This document shows, piece by piece, positions 1,746 through 41,434 of a stretch of DNA of 43,043 nt. The stretch's first letter is position 1. The number at the start of each line of letters is the position of its first letter. The position numbers and the translations under genes were made by a program. The notes under the pieces are model-generated. The model was not told where the DNA came from and made no database searches. It worked only from the letters and a program-made list of their open reading frames with translations. This stretch comes from Patescibacteria group bacterium (lineage in GTDB: Bacteria; Patescibacteriota; Patescibacteriia; 2-12-FULL-60-25): the NCBI GenBank assembly GCA_029210915.1, contig JARGGJ010000012.1, positions 1 through 43,043 of the forward strand, written 5' to 3'.

Positions 1746-1764
1746 ATAAAAACTTTGGAATGTA

Positions 1765-1845
1765 GTTCATAAAGTTCATAAAGTTTATAAAGTTCATAAA
1801 GTTGAATCAATCACATCTTTCCCACTTTATAAACTTTAAACTGGA
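1765..1845. repeat. AAAGTTCATAAAGTT word element
   Basis: About four tandem copies of GTTCATAAA or GTTTATAAA (1765-1803) are followed by the inverted form ACTTTATAAACTTTA (about 1824-1838). It fills the gap between the polysaccharide ligase gene and the methyltransferase gene. The same word family recurs at 40577-40665. Confidence 0.8.
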
Positions 1846-6422: not shown

Positions 6423-7872
6423 GTAAGTTTTCGGGTTTTTGGAACTTATTACGAAGATGCAACCACAGGGGCCATATATCTTCGAATGTAACAAGTTTAA
6501 CCAAAAATGCAAGCCCCACCGAAACCGCACTGCCGAAAACGAAGGCAAAGACCAAAGGCATGTATGCCCCAATGTATCTCCAAACCAACCAGGCTACAAC
6601 GGCGGCGGCAAAGGCACGGGTGATTATCCAAAGGAATTTTTTAAAGCCTCCGGCATCTTTATAAGTAAACATGAAGCCGATGGAAAGTAGAAACCAGAAA
6701 CTGAAGACTCCAGCCCAAGATGCACCAAGAGGGCCGTAGTATGGAATAAGCATAAAGTTCAATACAGCATTCACCAGCATAGTTGCGACCATGGCTGTGG
6801 TTTTAAGGTGGGCGCGGTTGGATCCGTTAAGTAAAGCGCCGATTGGGAAATCGATAAAGATTGGAAGTAAAACCCAAGGTAAAACTTGCATGGCCGCGAT
6901 AGAAGCGGAAAAAGCATCGCCATAGATGGCAGGAATGAGACGCGGTGCCAAAGCGGATAAACCCGCAGATATTGGAAATCCGACTGCAGCCATTAGGCGC
7001 ATGGAGCCGACAAAAGTTTTTTGCAGTTCATCGTGTTGTTTTTTGGCGAAAGCTTGGCTTAAGGCCGGGTAGAGAGCCGCGGTAAAAGTAAGCGGTACAA
7101 ACTGCATCGCATAAGTGAGTTTATAAGCAACTGCGTAATAGCCGACAGCCGTTGTACCTTTAAAAGCCTCAAGCATTAGGCTGTCGATGTATGAGTAGAC
7201 TTTTACCGCTATACCGGCGATTGCAAAAGGGAGCGCTTGATTGGAAAGGCTCCGTATGTCGACACGGCCGGGTTTTGTAAATTTTATATCTTGCTTGCGA
7301 ATATTCCAGTATGCCCATGCAACATTCCAAAGACTTCCAATTACAAGCGCAACTGCAAGGCCAATGGAGCCATAGCCCAAGATGGCTACAGATGCGGCGA
7401 TGGAACCAACGAGCACTTGCCCCACGAACATTCCAAATGCTTCGGGTTTTAGATTTTGCCTGCCGCGCAGAGCGCCATAGAGAATAAGATGAAAAGCATC
7501 CGCGCCCATGGCAATACAAGCGACTGCGATTGTAGCTAAGATTACCGGATCGTTTCCGCGCAAGATTCCATAGCCGATAGATGCCAGGATTGCGATAGGG
7601 ACCAGTGCAAACTTTGCTCGGATAGCCGCACCAAAGAGCCTATCAGCGCCGGCTTGGCCGCTGGCGATAGCTCGAATTACAACAGGTGTGATACCCAAGT
7701 CGGAAATGATTACAAAGACAGATGTGACAGATACCGCGTAAAAGTAAGAACCCGTAATCTCAGGACCAACCAATCGCGCTACAATCATGAACGCAAAAAA
7801 AGCCACGAACTTTTGACCCGTGGTAGCCAACATGAGAACCAATGCGTTTTTTGCTACTTTTTCACCGACCAT
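6412..7872 (-). CDS. Polysaccharide flippase (Wzx/MATE-like)
   Basis: Multi-pass membrane protein of 486 aa from the chosen start MVGEKVAKNALVLM, with about 12-14 hydrophobic segments and no hydrophilic domain. The opening motif, the GYYAVAYKL segment and the SQAFAKK loop fit the polysaccharide-transporter family (Wzx, MurJ and related). It would flip lipid-linked glycan units across the membrane for the ligase-like protein downstream. A further in-frame ATG 72 bases upstream would add LVIGYLSVIGKLVIGY, which is translated word-repeat DNA and is rejected. First gene of the glycan block; its stop overlaps the next gene. Confidence 0.87.
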   Translation of the reverse strand: MVGEKVAKNALVLMLATTGQKFVAFFAFMIVARLVGPEITGSYFYAVSVTSVFVIISDLGITPVVIRAIASGQAGADRLFGAAIRAKFALVPIAILASIGYGILRGNDPVILATIAVACIAMGADAFHLILYGALRGRQNLKPEAFGMFVGQVLVGSIAASVAILGYGSIGLAVALVIGSLWNVAWAYWNIRKQDIKFTKPGRVDIRSLSNQALPFAIAGIAVKVYSYIDSLMLEAFKGTTAVGYYAVAYKLTYAMQFVPLTFTAALYPALSQAFAKKQHDELQKTFVGSMRLMAAVGFPISAGLSALAPRLIPAIYGDAFSASIAAMQVLPWVLLPIFIDFPIGALLNGSNRAHLKTTAMVATMLVNAVLNFMLIPYYGPLGASWAGVFSFWFLLSIGFMFTYKDAGGFKKFLWIITRAFAAAVVAWLVWRYIGAYMPLVFAFVFGSAVSVGLAFLVKLVTFEDIWPLWLHLRNKFQKPENLHEA

Positions 7873-7883
7873 AAACTTGAAAT

Positions 7884-8025
7884 AACCAATCACCAATTTT
7901 CCAATAACCGATAAATAACCAATCACCAATAACTGAATAACCATTTGGTAATTGGAGCATTGGTTATCGGTGATTTATTGATGATTGTTTTGTTGGTTAT
8001 TGATGATTGTCTGGAGGTTATTTTC
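7884..8025. repeat. AATAACCAATCACC word element
   Basis: Several direct copies of AATAACCAATCACCAAT-like words (about 7884-7940) are followed by their inverted form, ATTGGTTATCGGTGATTT and GTTGGTTATTGATGATTG (about 7960-8010). The result is a long imperfect palindrome upstream of the flippase. The same word family makes up 21515-21757. Confidence 0.8.
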
Positions 8026-10350: not shown

Positions 10351-10380
10351 TTGTACGATGTACGATGTACGACGTACGAA
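10351..10380. repeat. GTACGATGTACGAC word element
   Basis: Three to four tandem copies of GTACGA(T/C) just downstream of the rpsI stop. GTAC is itself a palindrome, so the array can fold on itself. Confidence 0.65.
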
Positions 10381-16726: not shown

Positions 16727-16803
16727 AATGAGGATAATCTACTATAAAAAACCTTGGATTACAAGATTTTAATATATATATTGTAAAAAGTTCATCAAGA
16801 CTA

Positions 16804-16843
16804 AAGTTCATCAAGAGTTACTTATGTTGCTCTTGATGAACTT
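16804..16843. repeat. 40-bp hairpin element, copy 1
   Basis: AAGTTCATCAAGAG (16804-16817) and CTCTTGATGAACTT (16830-16843) are a perfect 14-bp inverted repeat with a 12-base loop. It is surrounded by further partial words (AAAGTTCATCAAGA, CTTTATGAACTTTA). It lies between the GAF-like gene and alaS. Confidence 0.88.
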
Positions 16844-16871
16844 GTAACTTTATGAACTTTAATCTTGTGAG

Positions 16872-17764: not shown

Positions 17765-18874
17765 TTAGCACAGATGAACAACTTCCTCTATAACGCCTCC
17801 ACCCAAGCATTCTTGACCTTGATAAATAACGGCGGATTGACCCTTCGCTGCCGCAAGAAGAGGTTTTATTAGTTCTATGTGGATGTTTTTTTTAGATTTG
17901 CCTGTGCATATCTTAGCCGGAATAAGTTCTCCGTGGTACCTGCCTTGGATTTGTACTTTAATAGGGAGTTTTGGCGGTTCGCCGGCAATCCAATGCATAT
18001 CACCAACTGTTAAATCTTTTGATTGTAAAAAAGGATGTTCTTCGCGATTCACGACAATGAGGATGTTCTTTTTCGTGTCTTTAACAGCAACAAACCAAGG
18101 ATGTTTATCGGCAACTGCGATGCGCCCACGTTGGCCGATAGTGTAGTTGTGCAGGCCTTGATGTTTACCGATTGTAACTCCTTCATCGGTAATGATCTTA
18201 CCCGGCTTATTTTTTATTTGATTGGATAAGAACTTGGAAAAATCCACTTTACCGATAAAACAGATGCCCTGGCTATCGGGCTTGTTTGCAACGGGAAGTT
18301 TGAATTTTTTGGCAAGCTCGCGGATCTTAGACTTTTGATAAGCGCCAACCGGCATAAGCGTGCGTCGTAAAACGGAGCCCGGGACACGGTATAGAAAGTA
18401 GCTTTGGTCTTTAGCAGGATCGATACCGCGGAACAATCGTCCCACGTCGCACGTCCCAATCGTCCCACGTCTATTGGTAGTGGATTTTACGATGGCGTAG
18501 TGGCCGGTGGCGATCGTGTCGTAGCCTAGTTCCATCGCCTTTTCGTAAAAGAGGCCGAATTTGATGTATTCGTTACAGAGGACATCCGGGTTTGGGGTCT
18601 CCCCTTTTTTGTAACCATGGTAAAGCTCGTCGACTATTTTTTTGCGATATTGTTTTTCGAAATCAAAAGTGAGGAGTGGAATATCGAGTGCGGCGGCGAC
18701 ACGCAAAGCATCACGGCGTTCCGCGCGCCAAGAGCAGACCCCGCTCATGGGATCCTTGGAATCAGACCAATTCTTGATAAAGCCTCCGGTAACATCATAC
18801 CCTTGCTCCAACAACAAAGCAGCGGCGACAGATGAGTCGACGCCTCCGCTTAGGGCTACGAGAACTTTTTTCAT
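17765..18874 (-). CDS. mnmA: tRNA-specific 2-thiouridylase MnmA
   Basis: Thiolates U34 of tRNAs for Lys, Glu and Gln. The start MKKVLVALSGGVDSS at 18874 is used because the PP-loop begins at once; 369 aa. Key sites: SGGVDSS (residues 9-15), NPDVLCNEYIKF with catalytic Cys-100, the KDQSYFLY segment, and PDSQGICFIG with Cys-205, followed by the central and C-terminal beta domains. Residues about 131-146 (STTNRRGTIGTCDVGR) are an in-frame insertion encoded by a 33-nt repeat also found upstream of rlmN; the family normally has a short loop here. The insertion sits between GHYA and the LxRG-D motif and probably loops out. Confidence 0.95.
   Translation of the reverse strand: MKKVLVALSGGVDSSVAAALLLEQGYDVTGGFIKNWSDSKDPMSGVCSWRAERRDALRVAAALDIPLLTFDFEKQYRKKIVDELYHGYKKGETPNPDVLCNEYIKFGLFYEKAMELGYDTIATGHYAIVKSTTNRRGTIGTCDVGRLFRGIDPAKDQSYFLYRVPGSVLRRTLMPVGAYQKSKIRELAKKFKLPVANKPDSQGICFIGKVDFSKFLSNQIKNKPGKIITDEGVTIGKHQGLHNYTIGQRGRIAVADKHPWFVAVKDTKKNILIVVNREEHPFLQSKDLTVGDMHWIAGEPPKLPIKVQIQGRYHGELIPAKICTGKSKKNIHIELIKPLLAAAKGQSAVIYQGQECLGGGVIEEVVHLC
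18438..18470. repeat. 33-nt CCCACGTCGCACGTC element inside mnmA
   Basis: It matches 19986-20018 at 32 of 33 positions; the only difference is GTCCCAAT here against GTCGCAAT there. It is built from the word CGTCCCACGT, present at both ends, plus CGCACGTC. It is translated on the minus strand as RGTIGTCDVGR within MnmA. Confidence 0.9.
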
Positions 18875-18900
18875 ATTTAGATGCAAGCTCATAAAGTTAC

Positions 18901-18940
18901 AAGTTCATCAAGAGAAACTTGGGTTACTCTTGATGAACTT
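18901..18940. repeat. 40-bp hairpin element, copy 2
   Basis: AAGTTCATCAAGAG (18901-18914) and CTCTTGATGAACTT (18927-18940), 12-base loop, then a partial copy AGACTTGATGAACC. It lies between rlmN and mnmA. Confidence 0.88.
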
Positions 18941-18962
18941 TAGACTTGATGAACCTGCGACT

Positions 18963-19979
18963 TTACGAACCAGCTTTGGTTGCCAGTTGCCCGCAGGCTC
19001 CGCTTATATCTTCTCCGTAGGAGATGCGGTGGGTGACGGAAACGCTGTGGCGTTTTAAATATTCTTGAAATGCACGGCGATCTTTTTCATCCGTAGCTTT
19101 ATACATGCCCGTGTCGTGATATTTTATTAGGTTGACATGTGATAGGCGTTTGTATGGATCGAGCAGTTCTACGAGCTGTTTTGCGTGTTCCAGGCTATCG
19201 TTAACTCCCTTTAGCATAACATATTCAAACATGACCTTGCGATTGGTTTGGCGCATGTACTCATCCAAAGTGTGCATGAGTTGTTTTAGGCTGTAGGCGA
19301 TGGAAACAGGCATTAGTTTTTCGCGAAGATCTTGAGTTGGAGCGTGAAGTGAGATTGCAAGATTTACCTGGGGCGCATCTTCTATCATACGCAAGATGCC
19401 GGGAACTATTCCGCAGGTGCTGATGCTGATGTGGCGCGCACCAAGACCAAAAAGATCTTGATCTGTTAGAACATCGATTGATTCAAAAACGGCATCTGTA
19501 TTGTGGAACGGTTCGCCCATTCCCATGAATACGATATTAGTGACTTTAGCGTCTTTGGCTTTGAGGTAGCGGGCGGCGTGTATTACTTGGTCGACAATTT
19601 CTTCGGAACTAAGATTTCGTCCAAAACCCATTTTGCCGGTGGCACAAAAAGTACAACCCATGGCACAACCGATTTGCGAGGAGACGCAGACAGTATTGCG
19701 GCCATCGGCATGACGCATAATTACGGTTTCGATGCGCTTATTATCTTCTGTCATCAAAAGCATTTTGGCGCTTTCGGGCTTATCTGTTTCCGAGGTTAGC
19801 TCCAATCTTAAAGGAGACCAGGTCAGTTCTTTGCAGGTTTCACGCAATGCGGCAGGCCAGGTGGAAACGCTATCCCAAGAATCGTGGAATTCCACGAAAT
19901 AGGAACGAATCGCCTGTTCCAGGCGGTATTTTGGTTGTTTGTGATCTCTTAAGAAAGATGATAATTCGATTGGTTGCAT
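18963..19979 (-). CDS. rlmN: 23S rRNA/tRNA (adenine-C2) methyltransferase RlmN
   Basis: Radical-SAM enzyme that methylates A2503 of 23S rRNA and A37 of some tRNAs. From the start MQPIELSSFLRDH (19979) it is 338 aa. The 4Fe-4S motif is Cys-105, Cys-109 and Cys-112 (GCAMGCTFC). The second catalytic pair is the Cys in NTVCVSSQ and Cys-329 in GEDISGACGQL near the end. The N-terminal helical domain (YRLEQAIRSYF) is present. An upstream ATG at 20000 lies inside a repeat and is rejected. It precedes mnmA with a repeat-rich spacer of 88 bases, so both may be tRNA/rRNA-modification genes of one unit or of two. Confidence 0.96.
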   Translation of the reverse strand: MQPIELSSFLRDHKQPKYRLEQAIRSYFVEFHDSWDSVSTWPAALRETCKELTWSPLRLELTSETDKPESAKMLLMTEDNKRIETVIMRHADGRNTVCVSSQIGCAMGCTFCATGKMGFGRNLSSEEIVDQVIHAARYLKAKDAKVTNIVFMGMGEPFHNTDAVFESIDVLTDQDLFGLGARHISISTCGIVPGILRMIEDAPQVNLAISLHAPTQDLREKLMPVSIAYSLKQLMHTLDEYMRQTNRKVMFEYVMLKGVNDSLEHAKQLVELLDPYKRLSHVNLIKYHDTGMYKATDEKDRRAFQEYLKRHSVSVTHRISYGEDISGACGQLATKAGS

Positions 19980-19985
19980 ATGATA

Positions 19986-20018
19986 CGTCCCACGTCGCAC
20001 GTCGCAATCGTCCCACGT
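19986..20018. repeat. 33-nt CCCACGTCGCACGTC element upstream of rlmN
   Basis: Non-coding near-identical partner of the element within mnmA (32/33). It ends six bases before the rlmN start codon, so it may affect the 5' leader of rlmN. Confidence 0.9.
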
Positions 20019-20101
20019 AGTTGTTTAGCGGAGGATACACTAAAATACTTAAAATATCAAGGGAGATGGGTATATATGGCAGTTCATCAAGTTTAAAGAC
20101 T

Positions 20102-20143
20102 AAAGTTCATCAAGAGTAACCAAAGTAACTCTTGATGAACTTT
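20102..20143. repeat. 40-bp hairpin element, copy 3
   Basis: AAAGTTCATCAAGAG (20102-20116) and CTCTTGATGAACTTT (20129-20143), a 15-bp stem with a 12-base loop. More partial words lie on both sides (GTTCATCAAGTTTAAAG, GTCTTGATGAATCG). It lies between the D,D-carboxypeptidase gene and rlmN. Confidence 0.88.
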
Positions 20144-20191
20144 AGTCTTGATGAATCGAGCTGAGCTCGATGAACTTTTATCTTTAATTCT

Positions 20192-21490: not shown

Positions 21491-21514
21491 GCTGTTTGTA
21501 TTTTGCCACAAAAT

Positions 21515-21757
21515 ACAAAAAATAACCAATAACCAAGCTCCAATCACCAATAAATCATCAATATCCAATTAACCAATAATAAATCTATCACTTATTTTTG
21601 TATTTTGTTGTTTTAATTTGGTATTTGTTTGGAAATTGGGATTTGTATCCTTTTTTTAGGATGTTATTGTCCGTGGCTTGTAATTTGATTATTGGTGATT
21701 ATTCTTTTGGTGATTTATTGATGATTATTTTATTGGTTATTGGTGATTGCAAGTTTA
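21515..21757. repeat. Long AATAACCAATCACC / GGTGATTATTGG word element
   Basis: Left part (about 21515-21585): repeated AATAACCAAT and AATCACCAATAAATCATC. Right part (about 21680-21757): the inverted words GATTATTGGTGATTATT, GGTGATTTATTGATGATT and TTGGTTATTGGTGATTG. A T-rich, G-poor middle of about 95 bases separates them. The whole spacer is non-coding and shares words with 7884-8025. Confidence 0.8.
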
Positions 21758-22432: not shown

Positions 22433-22459
22433 ATATAATAGATAAAAGATTAAAGTAAC

Positions 22460-22499
22460 AAGTTCATCAGGAGTTATCAAAGCAACTCTTGATGAACTT
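22460..22499. repeat. 40-bp hairpin element, copy 4
   Basis: AAGTTCATCAGGAG (22460-22473) and CTCTTGATGAACTT (22486-22499), 12-base loop, one mismatch in the stem. It lies between the ATPase gene and the hydrolase gene. Confidence 0.86.
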
Positions 22500-22528
22500 T
22501 TGCCTTCTTGAACATTTAGCTATATAGA

Positions 22529-24859: not shown

Positions 24860-24875
24860 ACTTATTCGTTTAACT

Positions 24876-25000
24876 GGTCTTAACGTCTTAACGTCGTAAA
24901 GTCATAACGTGTGAGCCATTCCAACCCCGTTAAGACATTAAGCCGTTAAGACTTTTCCCTATTATCTCTATTATTTGTTATTTGTTATTTATTATTTGTG
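24876..25000. repeat. GTCTTAACG and TTATTTGTTATTT word elements
   Basis: GTCTTAACGTCTTAACGTCG with relatives (about 24878-24910) faces GTTAAGACATTAAGCCGTTAAGAC (split by a few bases, 24929-24952) in inverted orientation. A second array, TTATTTGTTATTTGTTATTT, follows (24970-25000). The first word recurs at 27425-27460 and 41363-41420, the second at 35916-36001. Confidence 0.82.
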
Positions 25001-27424: not shown

Positions 27425-27460
27425 AAGTCTAACGTCTTAACGACTTAACGTCTTAACGTC
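27425..27460. repeat. GTCTTAACG word element
   Basis: Four overlapping words, GTCTAACGTCTTAACG and ACTTAACGTCTTAACG, in the short gap between secD and secF. Being within the likely secDF operon, it is not a terminator. Confidence 0.75.
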
Positions 27461-27472
27461 GAAATTCTTGGT

Positions 27473-40576: not shown

Positions 40577-40665
40577 GTTAAAAGTTTTTTAAAGTTTATA
40601 AAGTTTTTAAAGTGCTTTAAATAATATTTTTACAACTTTATGAACTTTATAAACTTTATAAACTA
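40577..40665. repeat. AAAGTTTATAAAGTT word element
   Basis: AAAGTTTTTTAAAGTTTATA-type words (40580-40612) face ACTTTATGAACTTTATAAAC and TTTATAAAC words (40635-40665) in inverted orientation. Same word family as 1765-1845. It lies upstream of the 39934-40569 gene. Confidence 0.82.
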
Positions 40666-41270: not shown

Positions 41271-41362
41271 TCATTTGGCAGAAACCATGCATTTGAGCTA
41301 CTGTATTATCTGGTTAAAATCTGAAATATATTGATATGACGTAACAGAAAAACTTAGATACA

Positions 41363-41420
41363 AGTCATAACGTCGTAACGTCTTAACGGAGCTACGTTAT
41401 GACGTTAAGACGTTAAGACT
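41363..41420. repeat. GTCTTAACG word element upstream of glyA
   Basis: AAGTCATAACGTCGTAACG and TCTTAACG (41362-41388) face CGTTATGACGTTAAGACG and TTAAGACT (41395-41420) in inverted orientation, a near-perfect long hairpin. It ends 14 bases before the glyA start, so it may shape the glyA leader. Confidence 0.85.
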
Positions 41421-41434
41421 ATTAAATAATTGAT

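Follow-up and report, generated by a model that had tools for sequence, protein, structure and literature searches.

Rickettsia is the best-known case of tiny repeats that have invaded core genes in frame. The Rickettsia palindromic elements (RPEs) of these Alphaproteobacteria are palindromes of up to ~150 bp that lie in frame in unrelated genes and whose mobiliser is unknown (PMC10969869). Other short repeats include the CGTC-tagged repetitive extragenic palindromes (REPs), which consist of an 8–9 bp stem, a 4–5 nt loop and a CCA-like tail, have published targets that include tRNA pseudouridine synthases and genes for DNA repair and do not count Patescibacteria among their reported hosts (PMC3733652), as well as the mainly intergenic, G-rich heptameric tandem repeats of cyanobacteria and Xanthomonas (PMC4692102). 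Here, we describe a 34-nt repeat built of 7-nt words, two copies of which are found within mnmA and before rlmN in a 43,043-nt stretch of patescibacterial DNA (the whole of which we call the window). The window is contig C3 of a genome (G000; 1.455 Mb in 49 contigs, 98.2% complete) that we term Uhrbacteria-like, given that the best named relatives of its MnmA were from Candidatus Uhrbacteria and other Patescibacteria. We compared it with eight genomes of the same genus (G001–G008, in seven of which MnmA was found), taken from a collection with one genome per species, and we consider it likely that the two copies belong to a dispersed 34-bp repeat, one of several families of 7-nt words spreading within this genus.

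The two stretches initially noticed, at 18438–18470 (CGTCCCACGTCGCACGTCCCAATCGTCCCACGT) and 19986–20018 (CGTCCCACGTCGCACGTCGCAATCGTCCCACGT), are identical at 32 of 33 bases, as stated in a preliminary description of this DNA, and no such match is expected by chance. Indeed, their 18-nt core (CGTCCCACGTCGCACGTC) matched the window at two places at ≤3 mismatches, and a second match arose in none of 100 shuffles. The same description rightly placed the first copy within the MnmA frame, as it lies in frame in the open reading frame (ORF) at 17765–18892, whose product was assigned to MnmA by NCBIfam with a score well over the cut-off, and the second copy six bases from the rlmN start. Even though both copies are real, they turned out to be merely two members of a genome-wide family. 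The genome search that had been proposed returned ~90 matches to the 18-mer in G000 at ≤3 mismatches and none for the reversed control. Aligning 35 distinct contexts gave the consensus CGTCCYA-CGTCGCW-CGTCCCA-AT-CGTCCYA-CGTC, a series of heptamers (CGTCNNA), so that the near-identity reported for 33 nt holds but the true unit is 34 nt long. Its edges are sharp: information content dropped from 1.3 to 0.3 bits on the left and from 1.0 to 0.2 bits on the right, the element began at CGTC in most contexts, and the flanks of the aligned copies were mutually unrelated. The 34-nt core pattern occurred at 14 places in G000, 15 in G007 and 13 in G001, at 0–2 places in five other congeners and nowhere in the control. 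When CGTC words were sought in 41 genomes of the family, they were mostly confined to this genus. A further copy, at C2:5434, is also one base away from the mnmA copy, that is, as close to it as the rlmN copy. The mnmA/rlmN pair is therefore no evidence of local copying between these two genes, which we ruled out.

We saw no target-site duplication, for which the preliminary description had suggested looking: 33 of the 35 contexts lacked an abutting direct repeat of at least 3 nt, the same as in shuffled pairs. Nor did the aligned copies carry terminal inverted repeats, both ends being CGTC in direct orientation. The 34-mer is not a palindrome either, as it folds into stems of 3–4 bp only (minimum free energy of −2.9 or −6.2 kcal/mol, depending on the strand). 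A longer form of the repeat holds a 10-bp hairpin, CCTCCTTTCGCGAAAGGAGG, between its arms; the mnmA copy is of the short form. Some 34-nt copies are accompanied, at a distance of a few tens of bases, by an inverted array. As a side observation, the 20-nt perfect palindrome CCTCCTTTCGCGAAAGGAGG was present at seven places in G000 and five in G007, in most cases with CGTC words as flanks and occasionally within core genes, e.g. tsaE, truB and metG (loci L298, L301, L305, L296, L299 and L302).

In MnmA, the insert occupies the loop between the GHYA and KDQSYF motifs. The preliminary description had held that the family has only a short loop here, which is true of G003, G004, G005 and G007 but not of G008, G006 and G001, where the loop is filled with other, unrelated repeat words. 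The four short-loop congeners showed no trace of the G000 word in mnmA. The alignment of relatives that had been advised thus gave four short loops and three unrelated words, and not a set of shared residues over divergent DNA. Compared with the short-loop congeners, the loop of G000 is ~9–13 residues longer, roughly the 11–16 that had been estimated. The word in the G008 loop, GTACGAAGTACGA, had 71 matches in G008 and 0–25 in other genomes. Two side observations concern the words of these sister species: the G001 loop holds a non-heptamer repeat peptide of the SVIARN type, and an array of GTACGATGTACGA, the main word of G008, lies at 10353–10379 of the window. An AlphaFold2 model of the G000 protein (mean predicted local distance difference test score, pLDDT, 89.9) placed residues 141–152 between the strands 133–138 and 150–155, with residues 141–146 below pLDDT 50; in this model, the insert is a disordered tip of a β-hairpin. 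At the same site, the loop of the Escherichia coli MnmA structure (2DER) is ~9 residues shorter. C106 and C211, the invariant cysteines, are unaltered, in agreement with the claim that the catalytic cysteines were undisturbed; the insert is located away from them in sequence, and an MnmA carrying it is predicted to be probably still functional. Before rlmN, the repeat was absent from the leaders of the seven congeners examined, the copy there probably being a neutral insertion in the leader or at the boundary.

MnmA is one of many G000 proteins with such inserts, which are present in no fewer than a dozen core genes besides mnmA. Open frames holding heptamer arrays encode EpmA/GenX, LigA, the N-terminal subunit of transketolase, RpiB, a PolX-like polymerase, TsaD, TsaE, RsmI, TruB, RadA, a phosphohexomutase, MetRS, a DinB-like polymerase, a PEP-synthase-like protein and others. 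Ten of the proteins, including MnmA, were checked with NCBIfam, and the remaining names are presumed from features of the sequences. The arrays were chosen for lying in open frames, and the list alone is no proof of selection for frame. Given that the 34-nt unit occurs in 35 unrelated contexts and that arrays lie in frame in many core genes, the repeats do get copied into coding sequence, which supports what had been proposed for the words seen at gene boundaries. The loop pattern of MnmA was repeated across sister species in ten further proteins. In RpiB, for example, the loop reads RRGTSDVGRAT in G000, RRTAYDVQR... in G001 and RNSKFDIR in G004 and is short in G003. Across 71 such loops from seven sister species, we counted 34 period-7 arrays in 5.6 kb, versus 27 in 48.6 kb of flanks from the same genes, an approximately elevenfold enrichment (Fisher p 3e-18, a nominal value, given that the species are relatives of one another, that two arrays share a loop in some cases and that bases do not count as independent trials). 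The genes in this comparison were picked for having an insert in G000, and G000 was left out of the array count. For periods 5, 6, 8 and 9, the same loops were not enriched over their flanks. The period-7 arrays of sister species mostly differed in sequence from those in the homologous loops of G000. Moreover, 12-mers repeated in the loop's own genome (threshold of four occurrences, a threshold of one being too noisy) covered 14.7% of loop bases and 1.1% of flanks, compared with 3.4% of loops when other genomes were used; without G000, the loop-over-flank test gave p = 0.008. Within one genome, the same unit recurred in unrelated genes, such as CGTCNNW in G000 and GTACGAA/T in the MnmA and RsmI genes of G008. 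Sister-species loops in TsaD, EpmA and PGM also contained non-heptamer repeat peptides of the PLIKGGRGD and PPFDKGGRGD types (the loci with these or the SVIARN type being L059, L212, L234, L192 and L196), and the gene of the DinB-like polymerase (L073:16771–17547) combined, within a single open frame, two or more heptamer arrays with other repeat-like peptides.

The preference for seven bases extends well beyond the CGTC words. Scanning for tandem arrays of any sequence in samples of 82–415 kb per genome, we found 161 period-7 arrays in 415 kb of G000 versus one in 410 kb of proteobacterial loci, a control that consisted of the surroundings of mnmA, not of random stretches, and that might for this reason be somewhat word-poor. 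Per 100 kb, G000, G001, G006, G007 and G008 had 27–39 such arrays and G005 ~17–19, with very few in G003 and G004. In most congeners the excess was strong and almost exclusive to period 7; only G000 also showed a notable excess of arrays with periods 8 and 9. The unit sequences differed from genome to genome, and the 161 arrays of G000 alone fell into 62 classes. A simple ORF model took in 80% of bases, and 27 of the 161 lay well within it, i.e. the arrays are depleted in coding sequence yet far from absent. DNA-uptake sequences are expected at a density far above that of the commonest 11-mer in the G000 sample, which occurred at 33 separate places in 415 kb, and we rejected this explanation of the words.

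Compared with described systems, the repeats share with RPEs that they are short, dispersed and inserted in frame into numerous unrelated genes, which tolerate the extra residues and probably remain functional. The parallel with RPEs drawn in the preliminary description therefore stands for the in-frame spread into many core genes but not for the structure, since the unit here is a heptameric, non-palindromic 34-mer, and the same loops are reused for different words from one sister species to the next. Like the CGTC-tagged REPs, the elements have CGTC at one end and are short, dispersed, in part intragenic, accompanied by inverted neighbours and devoid of an associated transposase; unlike them, the short element, with its 3–4 bp stems, lacks the 8–9 bp stem, the 4–5 nt loop and the CCA-like tail. 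With the heptameric repeats of cyanobacteria and Xanthomonas, they have in common the period of 7, the dispersal, the species-specific units and some inverted pairs, and they differ from them in the composite 34-mer with fixed ends and the many in-frame copies in core genes. The resemblance to the REPIN/RAYT system (PMC3116915, PMC2817692) lies in short, non-autonomous dispersed repeats that occur as singlets and inverted doublets, and the difference in G000 having no Y1 transposase match and in the short form without a REP stem. The tandem 7-nt units resemble heptameric tandem repeats in general (simple sequence repeats or short tandemly repeated repetitive sequences, SSR/STRR). Miniature inverted-repeat transposable elements (MITEs) differ, as neither target-site duplications nor terminal inverted repeats were present here, and so do retrotransposed elements or those of the diversity-generating retroelement (DGR) type, G000 having no RVT_1 match. 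No published description of these repeats in Patescibacteria was found in the open-licence literature, which is weak evidence.

The features around the two copies are listed in Table 1. Apart from the 34-mer, the window contains other repeat families. Four imperfect palindromes based on TTCATCAAGAG, a family distinct from the 34-mer, lie at gene boundaries around mnmA and rlmN (16790–16856, 18887–18953, 20089–20155 and 22446–22512). The eight-base word TAACGTCT is found in tandem at three boundaries (24873–24910, 27430–27467 and 41360–41426), nine-base TAAAGTTYA arrays, partly inverted to each other, near both ends of the window (1764–1838 and 40590–40664), and heptamer-like AATAACC / GGTTATT arrays, in a partly inverted arrangement, at two boundaries (7871–8019 and 21511–21749).

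Table 1. Copies of the repeat in the window and the genes concerned.
Feature	Coordinates	Strand	Remarks
34-nt heptamer-structured repeat, copy 1, inside mnmA	18438..18471	+	encodes MnmA residues 141-152 (RRGTIGTCDVGR) on the minus strand
34-nt repeat, copy 2, final base A not C	19986..20019	+	6 nt upstream of rlmN ATG
mnmA, tRNA 2-thiouridine(34) synthase, 375 aa	17765..18892	-	ORF stays intact through the insert
rlmN, gene after copy 2, ATG start 19979-19977	18963..19979	-	name from the preliminary description and sequence features

How the words reached these places could be explained in several ways. That the MnmA residues simply form a divergent native loop of the usual kind, whose DNA resembles the rlmN-side copy by chance, is extremely improbable: MnmA loop length does vary across proteins, but the shuffles yielded no second match, the ~90 genomic matches stand against none in the control, and the 34-mer core occurs 14 times in G000 with no trace of the word in the four short-loop congeners. 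Almost as improbable is an assembly or binning artefact that put repeat words into genes. Even though all the genomes are drafts of the kind obtained as metagenome-assembled genomes (MAGs) and contain repeats, with G000 in 49 contigs, the frames remain open across the inserts in many core genes, independent genomes carry inserts at the same loops, and the pattern recurs in G001, which is assembled in 4 contigs. Alternatively, each loop could have grown its own heptamer array by local 7-nt polymerase slippage, with no movement between loci. The strong period-7 bias and the 62 unit classes would fit this idea, and both a heptameric excess in bacteria and slippage tied to the polymerase footprint have been published (PMC4692102). 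Yet the same composite 34-mer, including its AT interruption and fixed ends, is present in 35 unrelated contexts, so slippage alone is insufficient, and the units shared between unrelated genes of one genome (CGTCNNW in G000, GTACGAA/T in G008) also speak against this explanation, which we regard as improbable.

The main rival to the mobility route we favour is a REP-associated (Y1) transposase, or another dedicated mobiliser, that was lost from G000 or went undetected there, a possibility to which we would give a limited chance. Y1 transposases are present in G001, G007 and G008, they leave no target-site duplication, and the inverted array often found shortly downstream of the element is reminiscent of REP doublets. 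Against it, a Pfam search gave no match to Y1_Tnp (PF01797) in G000, the genome richest in CGTC words, despite its 98.2% completeness, and none in G006; the short element has no REP-type stem; and the published CGTC-tagged REPs are likewise without associated transposases (PMC3733652). The RVT_1 reverse transcriptase was also unmatched in G000 in the Pfam search, with matches in G001, G006 and G008. Given their absence from G000 in this search and the lack of correlation with word abundance across the genus, we rejected both enzymes as mobilisers, and for the same reason favour template switching combined with 7-nt slippage, at about even odds.

By this favoured route, copies would move by template switching from one heptamer word to another, linked to repair or replication, and slippage in 7-nt steps would lengthen or shorten arrays, presumably without a dedicated transposase or reverse transcriptase of G000. 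Copies would land in many places, and the ones that hit a protein core or broke the frame would be lost, leaving intergenic copies and in-frame copies in exposed flexible loops, where the extra residues would be neutral. Several points weigh against this account. No single insertion event was seen in a comparison of one genome per species, and an exact insertion of 34 nt shifts the frame (34 mod 3 = 1), so that in-frame survivors need adjusted joints or compensating indels. Moreover, the absence of a mobiliser comes from a Pfam search of a draft genome for two families only, and a past or foreign mobiliser, or another class of enzyme, may have been at work. More speculatively, a process of DNA synthesis or repair that intrinsically advances in steps of 7 nt might write and copy the heptamer words without a transposase, the species-specific vocabularies repeatedly invading the same exposed loops; we put this forward tentatively, as an idea that is less likely to be right than wrong.

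The finding takes the invasion of core genes by tiny repeats to an unrelated, genome-reduced lineage, and in a sharper form, as sister species fill the same loops with genome-specific words. The genus thereby offers a natural comparative series in which to study the movement of elements that have no known mobiliser, the protein sites at which additional residues are tolerated and the reason for a step of seven bases. A further caution is that MAG annotations of this group contain repeat-derived peptides within ordinary enzymes. If it exists, a process with a 7-nt step would keep supplying proteins with new in-frame segments.
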